36,301 nt of DNA from a virus: IMG/VR virus record IMGVR_UViG_3300021438_000044, positions 1 through 36,301 of that record. One strand, 5' to 3'. Under the pieces are notes generated by a model. It saw only the letters and a program-made list of their open reading frames with translations. It ran no database searches and was not told the origin of the DNA. The translations under genes were made by a program, and so were the position numbers. Every line of letters starts with the position of its first letter. Within the stretch, counting starts at the first letter, position 1. This document shows positions 42-35,876 of this stretch, in pieces.

Positions 42-514
42 GCGTTAAAAACAAACTGCCACCTGAACTTCACATAGTTCATGGCACAAAAGGACAAAAC
101 CAAGGAACTTTGCTTCCTGAAAAAGTTAGGGCGAGAATCCCTAAAGCTTATTGGCTAACCAATCCATCAGCTTGGAACGAAGATCGGTTTATTGAAGAAA
201 CTGCTGAATATCTTTTTAATGTTTATGGCATAGGTTCAGAACAGGATCAACATACGCTTTCATTCCTAGCAACTCAAATCACACTTTACATACAATGTTT
301 GATTAAGGTTAAAGAAGAAGGCATTGTTACTGAATACAACAATGGCAAAACATTAGGACCATCGCCTTATATGTCTTTAATGGACAAGCTTCTTCAACGA
401 ATTATTATTTTGATGAACGAATTAGGATTAACGCCTAGGGGCAGATTACAAAAGACAGCTTCCGATAATTCTAGCATTGGCGATCTAATGACAGGTCCTG
501 ATAACTTTAAATGA
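38..514 (+). CDS. terS: Terminase small subunit, P27-like
   Basis: This 158-residue protein is the likely DNA-recognition subunit of the packaging motor. It would bind the packaging site and hand DNA to the large subunit encoded directly downstream. The N-terminal stretch with a glycine turn (residues 9-20), the helical middle, and the conserved C-terminal LTPRGRLQK segment fit the P27 family of HK97-type phages. Length is typical. The start has a very strong ribosome site (AAGGGGGG). The end overlaps the large subunit start by 4 bases (ATGA), so the two are translationally coupled. Confidence 0.85.
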   Translation: MSVKNKLPPELHIVHGTKGQNQGTLLPEKVRARIPKAYWLTNPSAWNEDRFIEETAEYLFNVYGIGSEQDQHTLSFLATQITLYIQCLIKVKEEGIVTEYNNGKTLGPSPYMSLMDKLLQRIIILMNELGLTPRGRLQKTASDNSSIGDLMTGPDNFK

Positions 515-2172
515 ACGATTGGCAAGATGGAATACAATATGCCATTGATGTAACCAAAGGCAATATTGAAGTATGTAATGATGTAAAGTTGGCTTGCCAA
601 AGATTGTTAGATTTTATGGGCGATCGGCAATGGGAATTTGAGTTTCACGAAAAATATGTTCGGCACTTCTTAAAGTTTGTTGAACTTCTAAAACACACCA
701 AAGGTCCTGATGCAGGTAAGCCCATAATTCTTGAGCCATTCCAAATTATGCTCATTTGTGCCATTTATGGCTTTAGGCACAAAAAAGATGTAACCAAAAG
801 AATGACCACAGATGTCATTGTCTTTATTCCTAGAAAAGCAGGTAAATCTACACTAACAGCAGTTATAGCCTTATACGAATTAACCTATGGTGAAGCAGGT
901 GCTGAAGTCTTTACTTTGGCTACCAATCGTGAACAAGCTACTATTGTATTTGATGCGGCAAGAGGTATGGTTGAATCTATGGGTGCAAATGCCCAAGCTT
1001 TATTTAATGTTAGTAAATATCACATTGGTAAAGCAGGCGATAGCCAATCTATGTTTAGGGCTTTATCTAGGGACAATAAAAAGTCAGGCGATGGTAAGAA
1101 TGCTTCTTGTGCGATTATAGACGAAGCCGCACAAATTGTTGATCGTAACTCAATTGAAGTTATCCATTCAGGTATGGTGGCTCGTAAAAATCCATTGCGT
1201 ATATACATAACCACAGCTTCATTTACTAAAGACACAAAATTCTATGAAGACATGAGTGCTTTCCAAGCTATGCTTCATGGCGAAGCTAAAGATAATCCAC
1301 ATTGGTTTGGATTATTATATTCGCTTGATCCGCAGGATAATTGGCGTGAACCTAAAACTTGGGCTAAAGCTAATCCAATGCATGGCATATCCATATATCA
1401 ATCTGCAATTGAAGAACGATGCGAACAAGCAAAACTTAAACCTGCATCATTAAATGAGTTTCTATGTAAAACACTTAACATATATGTAAGTGCCAACACA
1501 GCATGGATTGACAGACAATATTGGGATGATTCTGTAGGCGAATCTAAACCCGAACCTGAAGAAGTATTTATTGGCTTTGACCTTGCGGCAACACGAGATT
1601 TAAACGCAGTATGCACATTAAAACGCTATGCAGAAGACGATTATTTTGCAGAGTTTAAATTCTTCCTACCTGAAGATGGTCTTGCATTAGTTCCTAGTCA
1701 TTATCGTTCTATTTTTGACCAAGCTGTTCAATCAGGCATCCTTAAAATTACAGAAGGCAATGTAATGGATGATAGAGAAATTTCAGAATACATAAAACAA
1801 CAAGCTACAACATATAACATTAAAGAAGTTGGCTATGACGCCTACAATGCCGCTAGTTTAATTGCTAGGTTACACGAAAATGGCATTCCTGTTAAAAAGG
1901 TAGGACAAGGTATGGCAGTTTTAAGCAATCCTTCCAAGCATACTGAAAAGCTTATTATGCAACATTCTATTAAACATGATGGTAACCCATTCCTAGGTTG
2001 GCAACTTGGAAACTCTGAAGTATATGAAGATGTGAATGGAAATATTAAGATTCGTAAAAATGAAAGTGATAAATCAGCGAAGATTGATGGTATAATCGCA
2101 CTTATTATTGCGATGCATTGCTCATTGGATCATCCATTGACATCTACTTCATTTGGCTTCAGAAGTATTTAA
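511..2172 (+). CDS. terL: Terminase large subunit
   Basis: This 553-residue protein is the ATPase and nuclease that cuts concatemeric DNA and pumps it into the prohead. The Walker A-like motif PRKAGKS is at about 107-113 and Walker B with its catalytic glutamate (AIIDEAA) at 201-207. The RNase H-fold nuclease follows, with a first acidic motif in FIGFDLAAT near 352-360 and a late acidic residue in KIDGIIALI near 523-531. This is the Terminase_1 (HK97/P27-associated) architecture at its usual length. It overlaps terS by 4 bases and is followed after 9 bases by the portal gene. Confidence 0.95.
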   Translation: MNDWQDGIQYAIDVTKGNIEVCNDVKLACQRLLDFMGDRQWEFEFHEKYVRHFLKFVELLKHTKGPDAGKPIILEPFQIMLICAIYGFRHKKDVTKRMTTDVIVFIPRKAGKSTLTAVIALYELTYGEAGAEVFTLATNREQATIVFDAARGMVESMGANAQALFNVSKYHIGKAGDSQSMFRALSRDNKKSGDGKNASCAIIDEAAQIVDRNSIEVIHSGMVARKNPLRIYITTASFTKDTKFYEDMSAFQAMLHGEAKDNPHWFGLLYSLDPQDNWREPKTWAKANPMHGISIYQSAIEERCEQAKLKPASLNEFLCKTLNIYVSANTAWIDRQYWDDSVGESKPEPEEVFIGFDLAATRDLNAVCTLKRYAEDDYFAEFKFFLPEDGLALVPSHYRSIFDQAVQSGILKITEGNVMDDREISEYIKQQATTYNIKEVGYDAYNAASLIARLHENGIPVKKVGQGMAVLSNPSKHTEKLIMQHSIKHDGNPFLGWQLGNSEVYEDVNGNIKIRKNESDKSAKIDGIIALIIAMHCSLDHPLTSTSFGFRSI

Positions 2173-13719: not shown

Positions 13720-14456
13720 TGGAAAATATAGTATTTAATAATGGTTCTGCTATTAATTGGCAGAATGATTCAGGATCAATAGTAACTTGGCAAAATAACT
13801 CAAGTGTAACTGTTGTATGGACTACTTATAATGCAAATTATAATCTTCGTATGGCAGATTTTGTTAGAGTTACAACAAGTGATGCTACATATAGATTTTC
13901 AACAGCACCAACAGCTATGACTATATCAGCAGTAGATAGCCAACCATTTGCAGGATTAAGTCAATTAGTTAATATTGGTGAAGTTACAAGAGATATTAAA
14001 TCAACTGCTAATGAAACAGCTATTACTTTAATTGGGCTAGATACATCATTATTAGGTTGGGTTTTAGGGCAAACAATTAAGGGTTCTAAAATTGAAATGT
14101 GGCATGGCTTTTTTGATGCTGATAACAATTTAATAATCACAGGCGGCACAGGTGGTCTTTATAAATTTTTTACAGGTTATGTAAATTCATTCCAAATATC
14201 AGAACAATGGATTGAAGAAGCTAGATCATATACAGGCGTTGTAAGTGTTAATGCTTCAAGCATTCAAATTATCCTACAAAATTCTGTTTCAGGCAGATTT
14301 ACAAACAACAATGCTTGGACATTTTTTAATCCAACAGACACATCAATGGCTCGTGTAGGGTTTATTGAAACTATTAATTATTCATTTGGTGCAGAAAATG
14401 TGCCAACAATTACAGCAGATAAAATACAATCAAAATCAATACCAACTGAAATATAA
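13719..14456 (+). CDS. Tail tip assembly protein, probable lambda gpL-like slot
   Basis: This 245-residue protein contains VRVTTSDATYRFSTAP and NIGEVTRDIKSTANETAITLIGLD. Its C-terminal section reads VSGRFTNNNAWTFFNPTDTSMARVGFI. These patterns occur in tail tip or hub assembly proteins encoded just before J-like proteins. The N-terminal WQNDSGSIVTWQNNSS repeat is unusual. It begins on the stop of the previous gene and ends on the start of the acetyltransferase gene, so the block is tightly coupled. Confidence 0.6.
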   Translation: MENIVFNNGSAINWQNDSGSIVTWQNNSSVTVVWTTYNANYNLRMADFVRVTTSDATYRFSTAPTAMTISAVDSQPFAGLSQLVNIGEVTRDIKSTANETAITLIGLDTSLLGWVLGQTIKGSKIEMWHGFFDADNNLIITGGTGGLYKFFTGYVNSFQISEQWIEEARSYTGVVSVNASSIQIILQNSVSGRFTNNNAWTFFNPTDTSMARVGFIETINYSFGAENVPTITADKIQSKSIPTEI

Positions 14457-14908
14457 TGGAAATAAAATACAAGATAGCAAATAATAAAGAAGTATTTAAT
14501 GAAGTTTCTCAAATGTTTGAAAAGCATTATGAGGAATTATCTGCAACAAAAGGTTTTAAACTTAACCCTGATTATGATATTTATTGGGAAGCTGACAAAC
14601 GCAATACTCTAAAAACTATTGTTGCTTTAAAAAATGATGAAATAATTGGTTATATTGTTTATTTTGTAGGTATTAATTTACATTATAAAGATTGTTTATT
14701 AGCAACTGAAGACATTTACTATTTAAAGCCTGAATATAGAAAAGGTTTAATAGGTCCTAGAATGTTTGTATTTGCTGAAAAATATTTAAAATCTATTGGT
14801 GTTAATATGATTAGATATAGCACCAAAACACATTTAGATAATTCAAGATTGTTTGAATTTTTGGGTTGTAATTTTGTAGAAAAAGTTTATACGAAAGAAC
14901 TTAAATAA
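14456..14908 (+). CDS. GNAT-family acetyltransferase in the tail module
   Basis: This is a 150-residue enzyme-like protein. The central strand (KTIVALKNDEIIGYIVYFV), the acetyl-CoA loop in YLKPEYRKGLIGPRMF (about 94-109), and the end RLFEFLGCNFVEKVYTKEL match the GNAT fold. It would transfer an acetyl group from acetyl-CoA to an amine. The substrate is unknown. It overlaps both neighbours by one base, so it is made with the tail tip proteins. Acetyltransferases at this slot occur in other siphoviruses, where a role in modifying tail or host proteins has been proposed but not settled. Confidence 0.82.
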   Translation: MEIKYKIANNKEVFNEVSQMFEKHYEELSATKGFKLNPDYDIYWEADKRNTLKTIVALKNDEIIGYIVYFVGINLHYKDCLLATEDIYYLKPEYRKGLIGPRMFVFAEKYLKSIGVNMIRYSTKTHLDNSRLFEFLGCNFVEKVYTKELK

Positions 14909-24200: not shown

Positions 24201-24560
24201 ATGCCTTTAAAAGACAAGACCAAAACAAAAGAATATTTAAGGGCTTGGAAAGATAAGAACCGAGAAAAGAATTTGTTTCAATTGGCACATCATCGCGCCA
24301 AAATCAAAGGCATTGAATTTAATATAGAAATATCCGATATAGTCATTCCTGATACCTGTCCTATCTTGGGGCTTCCTATCAAAAAAATAATTGATGGTAA
24401 TAGAGATTTAAGCCCTAGCCTTGATAGAATTGATAATTCTAAAGGCTATGTTAAAGGCAATATTCAAGTCATATCATTTAAAGCTAATGCTATGAAATTG
24501 ACTGCTAACAAAGACGAATTAATTAACTTTTCTAATTGGGTAAGGAATACATATGAGTAA
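24201..24560 (+). CDS. HNH-like endonuclease family protein
   Basis: This 119-residue protein contains a basic N-terminus, CPILGLPI (53-60), SPSLDRIDNSKGYVKGNIQVIS (71-92) and a closing KANAMK. This SLDRID...GY..GN pattern is typical of a small HNH-type nuclease family in phages and bacteria. The usual second cysteine of the zinc pair is missing, so metal binding may be altered. It starts immediately after the previous stop and overlaps the next gene by 8 bases. Confidence 0.7.
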   Translation: MPLKDKTKTKEYLRAWKDKNREKNLFQLAHHRAKIKGIEFNIEISDIVIPDTCPILGLPIKKIIDGNRDLSPSLDRIDNSKGYVKGNIQVISFKANAMKLTANKDELINFSNWVRNTYE

Positions 24561-24823: not shown

Positions 24824-24844
24824 AAGGGGCATTTTAAGCCCCTT
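24824..24844. terminator. Convergent (bidirectional) intrinsic terminator
   Basis: A 7-bp stem AAGGGGC / GCCCCTT with a 7-base loop lies between the plus-strand structural block and the minus-strand operon. On the minus strand it is followed by a T run (complement of the A run 24816-24825), a strong terminator. On the plus strand the T tract is broken (TTAATTATTTT), so termination there is weaker. Confidence 0.8.
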
Positions 24845-24885: not shown

Positions 24886-24957
24886 TTACTTATTCATTAC
24901 ATACATTGTAACTTCGAAACCGAAACGCATTTCTGTTGCTGATGGAGTTGTCCACAT
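24886..24957 (-). CDS. pqqA: PqqA-like PQQ precursor peptide
   Basis: This 23-residue peptide begins MWTTPSATEMRFGFE and continues VTMY. It has the size and pattern of PqqA, the ribosomal peptide whose Glu15 and Tyr19 are cross-linked by the radical-SAM enzyme PqqE (with PqqD) and cut out to build pyrroloquinoline quinone. Both residues fall exactly at 15 and 19, inside the family core E-V-T-M-Y. A proper ribosome site (AAAGGAC, 8 bases before the ATG) shows it is a gene. It is the last gene of the minus-strand operon and ends before the terminator. No other pqq gene is present, so host enzymes would process it. Confidence 0.88.
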   Translation of the reverse strand: MWTTPSATEMRFGFEVTMYVMNK

Positions 24958-25051
24958 AATTAGTCCTTTATAAATGTTATACAAGCGCCAAAATTGAAGT
25001 TTGTATTGCAAATTATGACCTTTTTGCTAAACAAAACCATCAGTAAAATCA

Positions 25052-25288
25052 TTAAAATGGCATATCGCCTTCAGATGCAGATGCGTTTGAATTAGCACCT
25101 TCTCTTGGTTGTGGTTCGCGCATTGTAACCCAACCATCAAAATTGACAGGGATGGATTCAATAAGAAGTGAAGTGCCACCTTGTTTGTTGGACATAGCAA
25201 CGCCTACTTTAGTCCATCTTGCCTTTGTTTCACCATTAGCGTTCTTGTATTCGCCTGTTTTAGCGATTAAATCATGTGTTATTGCCAT
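25052..25288 (-). CDS. Small protein with SSB-like C-terminal tip, recombination operon
   Basis: This is a 78-residue protein. The beta-rich N-terminal part (DLIAKTGEYKNANGETKARWTKVGVAMSN) is followed by a flexible Asn/Ser/Ala/Glu linker and the final residues EGDMPF. That ending resembles the acidic DDDIPF tip by which SSB recruits partners. With a nuclease and ERF upstream, a small single-strand binding or mediator role is likely. It overlaps the exonuclease gene by 17 bases and has an AAAGGAAA ribosome site. Confidence 0.6.
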   Translation of the reverse strand: MAITHDLIAKTGEYKNANGETKARWTKVGVAMSNKQGGTSLLIESIPVNFDGWVTMREPQPREGANSNASASEGDMPF

Positions 25289-25940
25289 TTGATATTTCCT
25301 TTAAGTTAATTACTACAGTTTCAATTTCATGTAAGAACGAGATCACCTTGTCTTCCATTTGTTTAATGTATTCATCATCACGATAAATACGCTTTACGAA
25401 TCCTTGCAAATGATCAGGCATTTCAGGATCAAATGATATAAGGTCGCAAAATTCTTTTTCAGGCATGCAGGCTAATTGCCACATGCATTGGTCGTAATAT
25501 TGTTCCAATTGCTTGCCATTAGTCAAAATATTATCAAGATGATTTTCAGGATTAGGAACTTTGATTTCAATTAATGAATTGGTTGATTCAACAATGCCAT
25601 CAGGTGAACATTGACCACCTTCAATAGTAGGATGCAAAACGATTGCTACTTGATCCACAAAGACATTGTGTTTAACTTCATACCAAGACCTAGCCATAGG
25701 TTCTAAATCGATGCCACGCATCATTGCAGGCGTTTTATAGGTATCTAATTTACGACCTGTAAGCCTTTCCCTGATAAGTTCGTTTTTATACTTTCTACGA
25801 GTTAAGGATTCAGCACCACCACGACCTTCAGTAAGCAAATCTGCGATTCTGCTACCACCTATTTTACCTACGCGCAAAGACATCCATTCAGGTGATCCCT
25901 GAACGATGCCTTTTATTATTCTATCTTCTAATGTTTTCAT
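25272..25940 (-). CDS. YqaJ-type / lambda-exonuclease-like recombination nuclease
   Basis: This 222-residue enzyme would chew 5' strands at double-strand ends for annealing by ERF. Motifs: QGSPEWMSLRVGKIGGS (14-30), RGIDLEP with Glu80, CSPDGIV with Asp114, and LIEIKVP with Glu125 and Lys127. Together these form the PD-(D/E)XK active site. Length and order match YqaJ viral recombinases. The ribosome site is AGGAAC. Confidence 0.92.
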   Translation of the reverse strand: MKTLEDRIIKGIVQGSPEWMSLRVGKIGGSRIADLLTEGRGGAESLTRRKYKNELIRERLTGRKLDTYKTPAMMRGIDLEPMARSWYEVKHNVFVDQVAIVLHPTIEGGQCSPDGIVESTNSLIEIKVPNPENHLDNILTNGKQLEQYYDQCMWQLACMPEKEFCDLISFDPEMPDHLQGFVKRIYRDDEYIKQMEDKVISFLHEIETVVINLKEISNGNNT

Positions 25941-25948
25941 AACAGTTC

Positions 25949-26119
25949 CTATTCAATGGGTTTATCAAGTTTCTTGGTTAAAGGTGCTAATAAATACTTA
26001 TCACCTAAAAATCTTTTTAAAGCTTCAACTCTAGTTCTTCTTGCTTCTGCCTGCATAAGTTCTTCAGCAGTAATTGGTATTGGATAACCATAAAAATTAC
26101 GGATAATAGGTTCAGACAT
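25949..26119 (-). CDS. Small hypothetical protein between ERF and exonuclease genes
   Basis: This is a 56-residue protein starting MSEPIIRNFYGYPIPITAEE, with a basic helical middle (AEARRTRVEALKRFLG). Its ATG overlaps the 3' end of the ERF gene by 8 bases, with AAAGG about 9 bases upstream. I do not recognise it. The place suggests an accessory role in the recombination cassette. Confidence 0.65.
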   Translation of the reverse strand: MSEPIIRNFYGYPIPITAEELMQAEARRTRVEALKRFLGDKYLLAPLTKKLDKPIE

Positions 26120-26660
26120 TTAATTCGCCTTTCCTTTTATCTTTAGCATCAATCACCAATTTAGATAATGTGCGATCTGATTTAACTTCGCCCATTACAA
26201 AATTATAATTAGCTTGTAGTTCTTCTAGGGTTTGAGAATGATTAATTTTTTGAAGATAGTCTGAAGCATTAAGGACTGCTGATTGACCATCATCATCGTC
26301 TGCATATAAAGCACATAGGCTTGAGATTGAGTAGCGGCGAATATAAGATATAGCCGAACCCATGCTTTGTGCATCTTGCTTTTGTAAAGGACAGACAGCA
26401 GTATCTTCAATCCATTCACCTGAACTATGGATTAAACGGGTGGTTAGATGTAATTTACTGTCGTCTGAAGGACTTAATGATTGAATTAAAGCTATGCCAT
26501 TATCGTTTAATGGCTTTTTAACTGCATCAATCACAGAATTAATGTTAGCGTATTTGGATTTGTAATGAGGGTTGGTTGAATCTTTAACTGCAAAACGGAT
26601 TTCTTTTTGAGCCAAGACCAATGCTTCTGCAATAGCTTTTATGCTGTCTGATGTTTTCAT
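26112..26660 (-). CDS. erf: ERF-family single-strand annealing protein
   Basis: This 182-residue protein carries the ERF signature. TNPHYKSKYANINSVIDAVKKPLNDNGIALIQ spans 29-60, and DAQSMGSAISYIRRYSISSLCALYADDDD spans 96-124. The family (P22 Erf) anneals complementary single strands and circularises or recombines phage DNA. A helical C-terminal part follows. It works with the nuclease encoded two genes downstream. The ribosome site is AGGAAACC. Confidence 0.93.
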   Translation of the reverse strand: MKTSDSIKAIAEALVLAQKEIRFAVKDSTNPHYKSKYANINSVIDAVKKPLNDNGIALIQSLSPSDDSKLHLTTRLIHSSGEWIEDTAVCPLQKQDAQSMGSAISYIRRYSISSLCALYADDDDGQSAVLNASDYLQKINHSQTLEELQANYNFVMGEVKSDRTLSKLVIDAKDKRKGELNV

Positions 26661-27927: not shown

Positions 27928-28095
27928 TTAGTTTCCTTTAGTTTCTTGTTGAGTTGTATAAAGCACATCAATAGCTTGAGTTATTTTTTCGTCAAAGTCA
28001 AGCCAAAATGAATTAGTTGGAATTGAAAATTTAACTTCATGTTGCACAGCTTCTAAAAGTTTTTCAATTTTTAAGAATTTTTTTTCATTTATCAT
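27928..28095 (-). CDS. Small helical hypothetical protein
   Basis: This is a 55-residue protein starting MINEKKFLKIEKLLEAVQHE, with an amphipathic helix. An AAAGGAT ribosome site lies just after the internal terminator. Its stop is one base from the next gene's start, and its 3' end supplies that gene's ribosome site. No family is recognised. Confidence 0.6.
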   Translation of the reverse strand: MINEKKFLKIEKLLEAVQHEVKFSIPTNSFWLDFDEKITQAIDVLYTTQQETKGN

Positions 28096-28107
28096 ATTTT
28101 ATCCTTT

Positions 28108-28135
28108 AAAAAAACAGGGGCAATTAAGCCCCTTG
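28108..28135 (-). terminator. Intrinsic terminator inside the minus-strand operon
   Basis: On the minus strand the stem AGGGGC / GCCCCT with loop TTAATT is followed by G and a run of seven T. The stop codon of the first operon gene lies in the loop. It should end part of the transcript after the first gene, setting a ratio between it and the rest of the operon. No good promoter is seen between it and the next gene. Confidence 0.8.
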
Positions 28136-28465
28136 TCTTATTACTAATCCTGTTAAAACATCAACAACTGTTTCTTCAGGTTCAAAATTTGCCGCAATTT
28201 CAGCAAGAGTTTCTTCTGAATAACCATGTTGTTTTCTTAATCTAATATAATTAGCAATAGCTTTGTTATCTTCTTCAAATTTTGTTTCAAGGCTAATTTG
28301 AAGTGTTTGTTCTGAAATTTTGCCATCAACAAAAGCTAATTCAAGAATATCAATTGGTGGAACAGAATTGTTTGAAGCCCAACGAATAACGCCATTAGCG
28401 TCTGTGTAGTGTTCGTATTTGTCTAATTTAGCTACGAATCTGAAGTCTGTTGTTTGAAGTTTCAT
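28124..28465 (-). CDS. First gene of the minus-strand operon, unknown
   Basis: This is a 113-residue protein with a beta-rich N-terminus (TTDFRFVAKLDKYEHYTDANGVIRWA) and a helical, acidic C-terminus. No DNA-binding helix-turn-helix is obvious. A strong ribosome site (AAGGAAAC) precedes the start, and a promoter is visible 42-75 bases upstream. A terminator directly follows it, so it is expected to be the most abundant product of the operon. Confidence 0.7.
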   Translation of the reverse strand: MKLQTTDFRFVAKLDKYEHYTDANGVIRWASNNSVPPIDILELAFVDGKISEQTLQISLETKFEEDNKAIANYIRLRKQHGYSEETLAEIAANFEPEETVVDVLTGLVIRQGA

Positions 28466-33788: not shown

Positions 33789-34196
33789 ATGAAGAAAATT
33801 TATTCAATCAAAGAAGGCGAAATGCCATCAACATCAAAGCCAACAATTGGCGAGTTCTTTTTAACATTACTTCATGCCGCAACTAATGGTCATATTTTAC
33901 ATTTACAGACCAAATCCTATTCAGAGCATAAAGCTATGCAAAAGTATTATGAAGAATTGCCTGATTTGGTAGATAGAATTATTGAAGAATGGCAAGGTGC
34001 ATATCAAGTGATTGTTGAGTATCCAAATGAATACAAAGCACCAAGTTCTGATTCATTAACCGAAGTAACAATGATTCGTGATTATTTAGTGGCTAATCGT
34101 GATGTAGTAGGTCCATACACATCTTTACAGAACGATGTTGATGAATTAATGTCACTTCTTGATTCAACGATTTATCGTCTTACATTTTTAGACTAA
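33789..34196 (+). CDS. Ferritin/Dps-like helical protein (DUF5856-type)
   Basis: This is a 135-residue, all-helical protein. IGEFFLTLLHAATNGHILHLQTKSYSEHKAMQKYYEEL followed by VDRIIEEWQG resembles DUF5856 phage proteins, which have a Dps-like four-helix shape. Some metal-ligand-like His/Glu residues are present, but a full ferroxidase set is not obvious. It may protect or bind DNA. It has a clear ribosome site (GAAAGG) and stands slightly apart from the genes before it. Confidence 0.55.
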   Translation: MKKIYSIKEGEMPSTSKPTIGEFFLTLLHAATNGHILHLQTKSYSEHKAMQKYYEELPDLVDRIIEEWQGAYQVIVEYPNEYKAPSSDSLTEVTMIRDYLVANRDVVGPYTSLQNDVDELMSLLDSTIYRLTFLD

Positions 34197-34610
34197 ATGC
34201 CCTATGCCCCACTTAATGATAAGTGTAGGGAATTAGGTTGTAAGAATCCCAAGACAAGTCGTTCCACTTTTTGTAGTGAACATGGTGGTGGAATTACTGA
34301 TAAGGGTAAAGAAAATAGTAAGTTGTATTCAACAGCATTTTGGAAACAGAAAAGAAAAGAACAGTTAAGCAGGAAGCCATTATGTGCTTCTTGTTTATTG
34401 GAAGGTCGAGTTGTTCAAGCAGAACATATTGACCATGTATTTCCACATAGGCAAGATGGAACAAAATTTAGAATTAATTTGTTTCAAAGTCTTTGTGCTT
34501 CATGTCATACGAATAAGACATTAGAAGAAAACCAAGGAAATTACATATATTATTCACCTAATGGAATCATTCAATATACTGATTCAGATTATTCAAAGGA
34601 AGTTTTATGA
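34197..34610 (+). CDS. HNH endonuclease
   Basis: This is a 137-residue protein. A zinc-knuckle-like start (Cys10, Cys15, Cys26, His29) is followed by PLCASCLLEG (Cys63, Cys66), VQAEHIDHVFPHRQDG (His77 to His80) and LCASCHTNKT (Cys100, Cys103). HNH proteins of this type sit next to terminase genes in HK97-like phages and help DNA packaging. Here it is near the right edge, which may adjoin the terminase genes if the genome is circularly permuted. It overlaps the next gene by 4 bases. Confidence 0.88.
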   Translation: MPYAPLNDKCRELGCKNPKTSRSTFCSEHGGGITDKGKENSKLYSTAFWKQKRKEQLSRKPLCASCLLEGRVVQAEHIDHVFPHRQDGTKFRINLFQSLCASCHTNKTLEENQGNYIYYSPNGIIQYTDSDYSKEVL

Positions 34611-35068
34611 CAATTATTGTTTGGGATGGAAAAACGCTTGCCGCTGATAAGCAAACAAATGATGGTGGTCAAAAAATTAAATGCACAAAAATATTTAAAT
34701 GGAAAAATCATTTAATAGGTGGATCAGGAACATCAGTTTTAAATGAAGCAATGTTTCAATGGTTTAAAGATGGTGCAGACCATGAAAAATTTCCTGATTA
34801 TATTAATTTAGATGATGATAACGATTGTCATATGTTAGTAATAACACCTAAAGGAAAAATACTTAATTATGAAAACAATCCTTATCCAATGGATTATACA
34901 GAAAACAAAGTTTTTGCTATTGGATGTGGATCACCTTATGCATATGCGGCAATGTCTATGGGGGCTGATGCTAAAAAAGCAGTTGAAATAGCTATTGAAC
35001 ATGATGCTAATTGTGGCATGGGAATTGATACATTAACATTTGGAAAAAGAAAATTATGGCAATTATAG
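34607..35068 (+). CDS. Proteasome-like Ntn hydrolase
   Basis: This is a 153-residue protein. It starts MTIIVWDGKTLAADKQ, with a threonine at position 2 that would become the N-terminal nucleophile after Met removal. KIKCTKIFKWKNHLIGGSGT (23-42) carries Lys28, and VFAIGCGSPYAYAAMSMGADA (about 102-122) follows. The layout (Thr at the tip, Asp14, Lys) is like HslV and 20S subunits. Such single-domain Ntn hydrolases occur in phages, function unknown. It overlaps the holin gene by 13 bases. Confidence 0.75.
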   Translation: MTIIVWDGKTLAADKQTNDGGQKIKCTKIFKWKNHLIGGSGTSVLNEAMFQWFKDGADHEKFPDYINLDDDNDCHMLVITPKGKILNYENNPYPMDYTENKVFAIGCGSPYAYAAMSMGADAKKAVEIAIEHDANCGMGIDTLTFGKRKLWQL

Positions 35069-35445
35069 ATACAGTATTAACTACAATTGGTTCAGTATTA
35101 GATAAAGTAATTCCTGATGCTAATGCAAGATTAAAAGCTAAAGAAGAATTAGAAAGGGCATTAAATGATCAAGACTTTCAAATTGCTATTGAACAAATCA
35201 AGATTAATGCTATTGAAGCACAATCGGAAAGCTTCTTTAAATCAGGTTGGCGACCAAGCGTTGGTTGGATATGCTCAATCGCTTTCGCATTACACTTTGT
35301 TATTCTTCCCTTATTCAACTACTTTCTCATGCTCTGCGGTGGACAACCAATTCTTGTGCCATTTCAAATGGATACTCTTTTAACAGTATTGCTTGGATTA
35401 TTAGGCATGGGAACATTAAGAACAGTTGAGAAGATGAAGAAATGA
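35056..35445 (+). CDS. Holin, 3-TM (GTA holin) superfamily
   Basis: This is a 129-residue protein. The amphipathic N-terminal half (LDKVIPDANARLKAKEELERALNDQ) and the motif SGWRPSVGWICSIAFALHF are the hallmark of the 3-TM holin family. Three membrane spans follow in about 72-120. It would permeabilise the inner membrane at lysis. The peptidase gene starts on its stop (ATGA), so holin and endolysin are coupled. Confidence 0.85.
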   Translation: MAIIDTVLTTIGSVLDKVIPDANARLKAKEELERALNDQDFQIAIEQIKINAIEAQSESFFKSGWRPSVGWICSIAFALHFVILPLFNYFLMLCGGQPILVPFQMDTLLTVLLGLLGMGTLRTVEKMKK

Positions 35446-35876
35446 ATTTAACGGAACATTTTACTTTAGACGAATTAATATTTAGCGACATTGCTAAACG
35501 CAATGGTTTAGACAATAACCCTGATAAAATTATTATTGGAAACTTAACTAGACTTGCACAATTACTTGAGGAAGTTCGCACCTTATTTAATAAGCCTATT
35601 CGTGTTAATAGTGGATATAGAAGCGTTACAGTCAATGCATTATTGGGAAGCAAACCTAACTCCCAACATTGCATTGGTTGTGCCGCTGATATTCACATTG
35701 ATGGATTAACGCCTGATCAAATAGTTAAAAAAATTATGGCAAGCAATATTCAATATGATCAATTGATAAGAGAGTTTGATTCATGGGTTCATATATCTGT
35801 TCCTAATGGTGAAGGATATTTACCACGAAAGAACGCACTTATTATAGATAAGACAGGCACACGATCATACGCATGA
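35442..35876 (+). CDS. Peptidase M15 endolysin
   Basis: This is a 144-residue protein. Zinc ligands are visible: SQHCIGCAADIHI with His76 and Asp83, and SWVHISV with His117. RVNSGYRS (54-61) is typical of the Peptidase_M15_3 / D-Ala-D-Ala or L-Ala-D-Glu endopeptidase type, which cuts peptidoglycan stems. It has no signal peptide, as for holin-released endolysins. It ends on the ATG of a small membrane gene. Confidence 0.9.
   Translation: MNLTEHFTLDELIFSDIAKRNGLDNNPDKIIIGNLTRLAQLLEEVRTLFNKPIRVNSGYRSVTVNALLGSKPNSQHCIGCAADIHIDGLTPDQIVKKIMASNIQYDQLIREFDSWVHISVPNGEGYLPRKNALIIDKTGTRSYA

Follow-up and report, generated by a model that had tools for sequence, protein, structure and literature searches.

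A solitary pqqA gene in a P19250A-like phage and its recurrence in unrelated phages of methylotrophic Methylophilales

Why should a phage carry, in a gene of 72 bp, the peptide from which bacteria make the cofactor PQQ? The question was raised by the first-pass annotation of a viral DNA, IMG/VR record IMGVR_UViG_3300021438_000044, the whole of which (36,301 bases, including genes for terminase, major head protein and tape measure) was analyzed here and is referred to as the window. PqqE, with PqqD, cross-links the glutamate and the tyrosine of PqqA as the first step to PQQ, and one peptide is used per PQQ molecule. The annotation had read a 23-residue frame with Trp2, Glu15 and Tyr19, preceded by a ribosome site, as such a precursor. 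The frame proved to lie on the minus strand, with its ATG at 24957-24955, the end of its stop codon at 24886 and AAAGGA 6 nt before the ATG, and all of the residues named are present in the encoded peptide, MWTTPSATEMRFGFEVTMYVMNK.

The identity of the peptide was examined by profile search, as the annotation had proposed. The peptide scored 41.3 bits (E 1.4e-10) against the Pfam model PF08042 and 38.5 bits (E 6.9e-10) against TIGR02107, an "equivalog" model of NCBIfam, both far above the curated cut-offs (21.1 and 20, respectively), and it was the single PqqA match in the whole record; the lack of a significant profile match, which the annotation had named as refuting its reading, was thus not seen. 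A six-frame scan of the window for the motif W..P.....R.G.EVT.Y gave a single occurrence, and 300 mononucleotide shuffles of the window gave none; these counts and the profile scores rule out a chance frame. The E-x-x-x-Y spacing of PqqA is present in the EVTxY core (E15 and Y19, which in known PqqA end up as the PQQ skeleton, numbered after the 23-residue Klebsiella peptide), and the frame is a short translatable ORF within the expected size of about 20-30 residues, with a start codon, a Shine-Dalgarno (SD) site and coding-type conservation. A longer in-frame version from a TTG start (25011, 41 residues) was rejected because of its lower profile score and because relatives keep only the ATG version with the SD site; a plus-strand reading of the same coordinates contains a stop and gives no product. 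A sequence search of the PDB gave no match. By these profile and motif data, to which identical peptides in host-type contigs are added below, positions 24886-24957 encode a real pqqA.

The carrier is a genuine phage genome, since terminase, major head, tape measure, ERF and YqaJ genes are found in the window (Table 1) and the same small gene occurs in isolated phages. The terminase large subunit (TerL) has its closest match in P19250A, with the second-ranking phage record at only 34% identity. P19250A infects the Methylophilaceae bacterium IMCC19250, a freshwater member of the LD28-clade. That the window represents a tailed phage of a Methylophilaceae methylotroph, related to P19250A, is well supported by its sequence; a host of this kind had been predicted from the start, in agreement with the TerL match and with the host-type peptides described below.

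Table 1. Features of the window and pqqA loci located in phages of Methylophilales/Methylophilaceae
Feature	Record	Position	Strand	Evidence
pqqA with TAA stop	window	24886..24957	minus	PF08042, TIGR02107; tblastn to nine Methylophilales/Methylophilaceae phage records
Shine-Dalgarno AAAGGA	window	24964..24969	minus	6 nt 5' of pqqA ATG; from sequence
Stem-loop terminator AAGGGGC..GCCCCTT, U-tracts on both sides	window	24824..24844		terminator scan
78-aa protein, acidic DMPF tail	window	25052..25288	minus	phrog_37570 (unknown function); homologues at same place in G001, G002
YqaJ-like recombination exonuclease	window	25272..25940	minus	PF09588 E 1.2e-17; phrog_149 E 5.6e-40
ERF single-strand annealing protein	window	26112..26660	minus	PF04404 E 9.5e-25; phrog_2324 E 7.6e-50
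Terminase large subunit	window	511..2172	plus	phrog_9 E 1.8e-139; tblastn, 83% identical to Methylophilaceae phage P19250A
pqqA, unannotated	KX815270 (P19250A)	28085-28153		tblastn
pqqA, unannotated	MT375522	9977-10045		tblastn
pqqA, unannotated	MW452941	3316-3384		tblastn
pqqA, unannotated	OP830906	41902-41970		tblastn
pqqA, unannotated	OP830907	43050-43118		tblastn
pqqA, unannotated	MZ577097	76140-76205		tblastn

The gene had been described as closing an early-type operon, and its surroundings agree: a leftward recombination operon, with the ERF, YqaJ and 78-aa protein genes upstream on the same strand, ends in pqqA, and a stem-loop terminator follows directly. This stem-loop is predicted to end both the pqqA operon and the rightward operon facing it; the terminator scan of the region found 6 against 2.2 in shuffles. 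The 78-aa protein may be like a phage ssDNA-binding protein, as judged from its position and DMPF tail, and in the environmental phage record MW202481 an annotated SSB adjoins pqqA. In records G001 and G002, pqqA lies at the homologous place. The 94-nt gap 5' of pqqA contained no promoter scoring 9/12 or more, so that read-through from the operon would be the simplest model of its transcription. In P19250A, pqqA runs in the same direction as the preceding gene; in Venkman both neighbours are encoded on the other strand, and pqqA therefore requires its own transcription. Across the terminator from pqqA, the window encodes an endonuclease VII-like protein (24201-24560, plus strand; phrog_3322), and within the tail genes a GNAT acetyltransferase (14456-14908, plus strand), for which a single one of the ten close relatives gave a match.

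To locate the gene in named phages, the peptide was compared by tblastn with 50,697 phage records. All nine Methylophilales/Methylophilaceae phage records found carried pqqA (P19250A, Venkman, MEP301, MEP401, MEP402 and four Melnitz records), a count that is not one of all named phages, as MEP431-434, Venkman EXVC038S, MG-MTP1 and RSA-MFP1 appear in the taxonomy without a genome in the collection. The only other matches were MW202481, an environmental genome, and two "Acinetobacter phage" records. The latter, named "Acinetobacter phage MD-2021a", were not counted, because the contig inspected (CAKLQF020000010.1) carries pqqBCDE, polyphosphate kinase, housekeeping genes and other bacterial genes and is apparently a mislabelled chromosome. 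None of the named phage records inspected had pqqA annotated, and Melnitz and MW202481 have a "hypothetical protein" annotated across the locus on the incorrect strand. Host contamination was ruled out for the isolates as a source of these matches, and PqqE was absent from the viral records.

The nine records fall into at least four groups, namely the P19250A/Venkman siphoviruses, MEP301, MEP401/402 (Zobellviridae) and Melnitz (Kyanoviridae). A 5-kb stretch of MEP401 has essentially pqqA alone in common with P19250A, MEP301, Venkman and Melnitz; the same stretch holds a structural gene common to Roseobacter phages (CRP-4/5), and the MEP301 terminase is closest to that of a pelagiphage. Roseobacter phages CRP-4/5 and pelagiphages EXVC031P and HTVC008M (Kyanoviridae) were absent from the pqqA matches among the 50,697 records. 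Because unrelated groups carry the gene, and no match came from phages that infect other hosts yet have genes or a family in common with these groups, pqqA tracks the host and not the phage family. Within the TerL lineage of the window, pqqA was found in 5 of 24 records (3 of the 12 longer than 30 kb), so that the gene is gained or lost there.

Environmental viruses gave the same gene in more than 200 IMG/VR contigs. Three scans, each with at least 120 matches, were pooled into at least 253 phage loci in 25 linkage groups defined by shared proteins. Among the matches listed in the first scan, 120 of 120 were PqqA frames that begin with ATG, and an SD-like site preceded nearly all of them; an AGGA/AAGG-type site 5' of the ATG was present in nearly all relatives and coincided with a peak of upstream information. 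In the second scan, E15 and Y19 were left free, and both were retained in 120 of 120 among the matches listed; the loss of Glu15 or Tyr19 in related phages, which the first-pass annotation had named as evidence against its reading, was not seen. Among 212 distinct copies in the matches listed, the information was 0.82 bit at third codon positions versus 1.49 and 1.61 bits at the others, and 0.08-0.17 bit in the flanks, with no conservation outside the ORF and the SD site. The dN/dS of the distinct copies listed was about 0.13. Arg11, which the two broader scans left free, was invariant among the matches listed, with all six Arg codons in use. The variable third positions, fixed Arg11, unconserved flanks and low dN/dS together show that selection acts on the peptide.

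Viral contigs of other kinds also carried pqqA. A second, unrelated class consists of lambda-like temperate phages in IMG/VR (several of 26-41 kb, about 52% GC) with an enterobacterial-type pqqA (MWKKPAFIDMRLGLEVTLYISNR; contigs L430, L440, L428, L398, L403, L423, L450, L481 and L497), located in several of them near one contig end. A tyrosine integrase lay near a contig end in two of the six tested, and in L481 the gene has phage genes on one side and a truncated TonB-receptor-like gene on the other. No match to this pqqA was found in E. coli genomes, and from its sequence context it may be either a phage moron or host flank. Three further viral contigs (L437, L456 and L490) encode PqqA of a non-Methylophilaceae type (e.g., MAWNTPSIVEICAGMEVTSYSSAEI), which suggests that phages of other PQQ-making bacteria may carry the gene as well.

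The bacterial counterparts were also compared. Among the matches listed in a scan of bacterial genomes, Methylophilaceae and Methylophaga predominated. The window peptide was identical to PqqA of two host-type metagenome contigs (L201 and L209) and one residue off the common Methylophilaceae form, and the peptides of P19250A and MW202481 were the two commonest Methylophilaceae forms. Identity to a compared host PqqA was observed for 58 of the 253 phage loci listed, including P19250A and the window, while the Melnitz and MEP401 copies were 3 residues off the nearest compared host peptide. The nearest host gene, that of Candidatus Methylopumilus Baikal-deep-G83, differed at 4 of 72 nt; these differences are clustered and followed by 48 identical bases, suggesting a recent exchange between phage and host. 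The gene is thus host-like, and with a dN/dS of about 0.13 it is under purifying selection, as is characteristic of an auxiliary metabolic gene (AMG). Twelve host-side genomes held 1-12 pqqA copies each; Methylotenera mobilis 13 and others reach up to 12 scattered copies in one Methylophilaceae genome. Such amplification fits a selection on dosage. A host-phage tree was set aside, since its 66 columns are too few: 32 changes of label were counted, only 4 of them forced by supported branches, and the phage and host copies intermingled.

Compared with bacterial PqqA, including the multi-copy stand-alone pqqA of Methylophilaceae, the window copy has the same length, W2, P5, R11, G13, E15-V-T-x-Y19, SD site and ATG. 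It differs in that it sits in a phage recombination operon with no PqqE in the phage, and the third positions of phage copies are slightly more AT-rich. Linked pqqBCDE genes were not found: PqqE above cut-off was seen in none of 54 pqqA-bearing viral records (the window and 53 others), and the earlier remark that the window holds no other pqq gene stands as far as PqqE is concerned, the gene covered by the profile search. Membership in PqqA is unaffected, because the linkage is usual but not defining and host copies are also solitary, as reported for stand-alone copies in a methylotroph (PMC9851590). A general link to a phage-encoded methanol dehydrogenase was ruled out, as only 1 of 50 pqqA-bearing viral records encodes one. 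That record (IMGVR_UViG_3300025120_009955, 72 kb) has a PQQ-dependent methanol/ethanol dehydrogenase at 34049-35731 and is a candidate relative of the Lake Baikal virus VP_266.

Taken together, these data make it quite probable that the phage carries a functional pqqA as an AMG, topping up a PQQ precursor that is consumed. During infection, expression of the last gene of the recombination operon would yield the peptide, in which PqqD/PqqE of the host would link Glu15 with Tyr19; the remaining steps to PQQ would be left to proteases, PqqB and PqqC of the host. PQQ-dependent methanol dehydrogenase, and thus the energy supply of the host, could then be kept running as host gene expression falls, to the benefit of the phage. 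Because PqqA alone among the pathway components is consumed, we propose that 72 bp would be the cheapest route to sustained PQQ. Five pqqA copies have been reported in a PQQ-producing methylotroph, and purified PqqA added to a Gluconobacter extract gave PQQ with 70-80% conversion (PMC9851590). An increase of PQQ on raising pqqA alone in Gluconobacter is cited in PMC7936290. In Acetobacter, pqqAB gave only 29% more PQQ versus an eightfold increase with the whole operon, which argues that PqqA need not limit PQQ (PMC7936290). Against the supply model also stand the presence of at least one pqqA in the hosts and its absence from some TerL-related phages. In the literature searched, we found no transcript, protein or PQQ measurement for pqqA-bearing phages.

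Other readings of the gene were weighed against precursor supply. It is unlikely that the raw or modified peptide has a different role, such as signaling, control of host pqq/mdh genes or anti-defence. In ocean metagenomes, a PqqA-like RiPP family was expressed together with defence systems (PMC11118758), and pqqA lies beside recombination genes, not metabolic ones; however, the sequence constraint equals that of the substrate, no phage-specific motif has been added, and the distribution follows the host group instead of the phage family. We consider it very unlikely that the peptide is a decoy which ties up PqqD/PqqE and reduces or diverts PQQ synthesis, shutting down methanol oxidation or starving a competitor. 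Competition with host PqqA is conceivable for a peptide able to bind PqqD/PqqE, and the divergence of the Melnitz and MEP401 copies would allow for this, but the 58 loci with a host-identical peptide are indistinguishable to the enzymes, and a decoy would gain by losing both E15 and Y19, which were retained in all 120 matches listed. Both precursor supply and PqqE titration had been offered in the first-pass annotation; the former is favored by these sequences and the latter disfavored, because no distinct decoy is possible where the phage peptide is identical to the host substrate.

There is a slim chance that pqqA is a neutral passenger captured from a multi-copy host genome. Hosts with up to 12 copies would make capture easy, and phage and host copies are mixed on a tree of poor resolution, but purifying selection, the occurrence of the gene in four or more unrelated groups of phages infecting a single host order and the intact SD site in nearly all copies listed argue against neutrality. 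The chance that the DNA itself matters, as an attachment or recombination site common to the host chromosome, is close to negligible: about 48 identical bases shared with Methylopumilus pqqA and the position near one end in enterobacterial prophages would suit it, but the codon pattern (variable third positions and nothing conserved beyond the ORF and SD site in the 212 distinct copies listed) already largely refutes it, and none of the 54 pqqA-bearing viral records has a tyrosine integrase.

Whether viral pqqA had been reported before was left undecided in the first-pass annotation. Two reports were found, and no further one in openly accessible papers. In 2020, pqqA and methanol dehydrogenase were described in VP_266 from Lake Baikal (PMC7678222), which is also a Methylophilaceae-assigned phage and for which the same idea of boosted methanol oxidation was put forward; VP_266 is, however, a T4-like contig with a methanol dehydrogenase, whereas the window has a solitary pqqA in a 36-kb P19250A-like phage. 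P19250A was said to carry none of the AMGs of that study (PMC7678222), whereas tblastn located pqqA at KX815270 28085-28153. In 2026, pqqA from reservoir sediments was counted as a viral AMG (PMC13188868); it is grouped there with pqqD and pqqE as a gene of phosphate solubilisation, and the accessible part of that paper draws no link to methylotroph phages. The AMG list in the MEP401/402 paper does not include pqqA, and PQQ is nowhere named in the papers on MEP301 and Venkman. A near-universal, solitary and unannotated pqqA in methylotroph phages appears to be new with respect to openly accessible papers.

Cyanophage psbA, a photosystem AMG, encodes a protein subunit that is repaired. The phage in both cases would supply the fastest-used part of the host energy system, but the psbA product is a repaired subunit, whereas the pqqA product is a peptide destroyed to make a cofactor. 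On balance, we lean toward the view that pqqA is a host-specific hallmark of Methylophilales phages, unrelated groups of which each acquired and kept a 72-bp gene, missed by gene callers, that feeds the consumable component of the PQQ pathway. If so, it would be an AMG that encodes a substrate peptide and not an enzyme. Genes of 20-30 codons such as pqqA are missed by standard annotation, which serves as a warning, and cultured phage-host pairs (P19250A/IMCC19250, MEP301/FZCC2181 and Venkman/H5P1) make the proposal immediately testable. Methylophilales (OM43 and Methylopumilus) are abundant methanol oxidisers of coastal seas and lakes; if all of their phages carry the precursor, viral control of methanol oxidation would be routine and not a curiosity of one Baikal virus.
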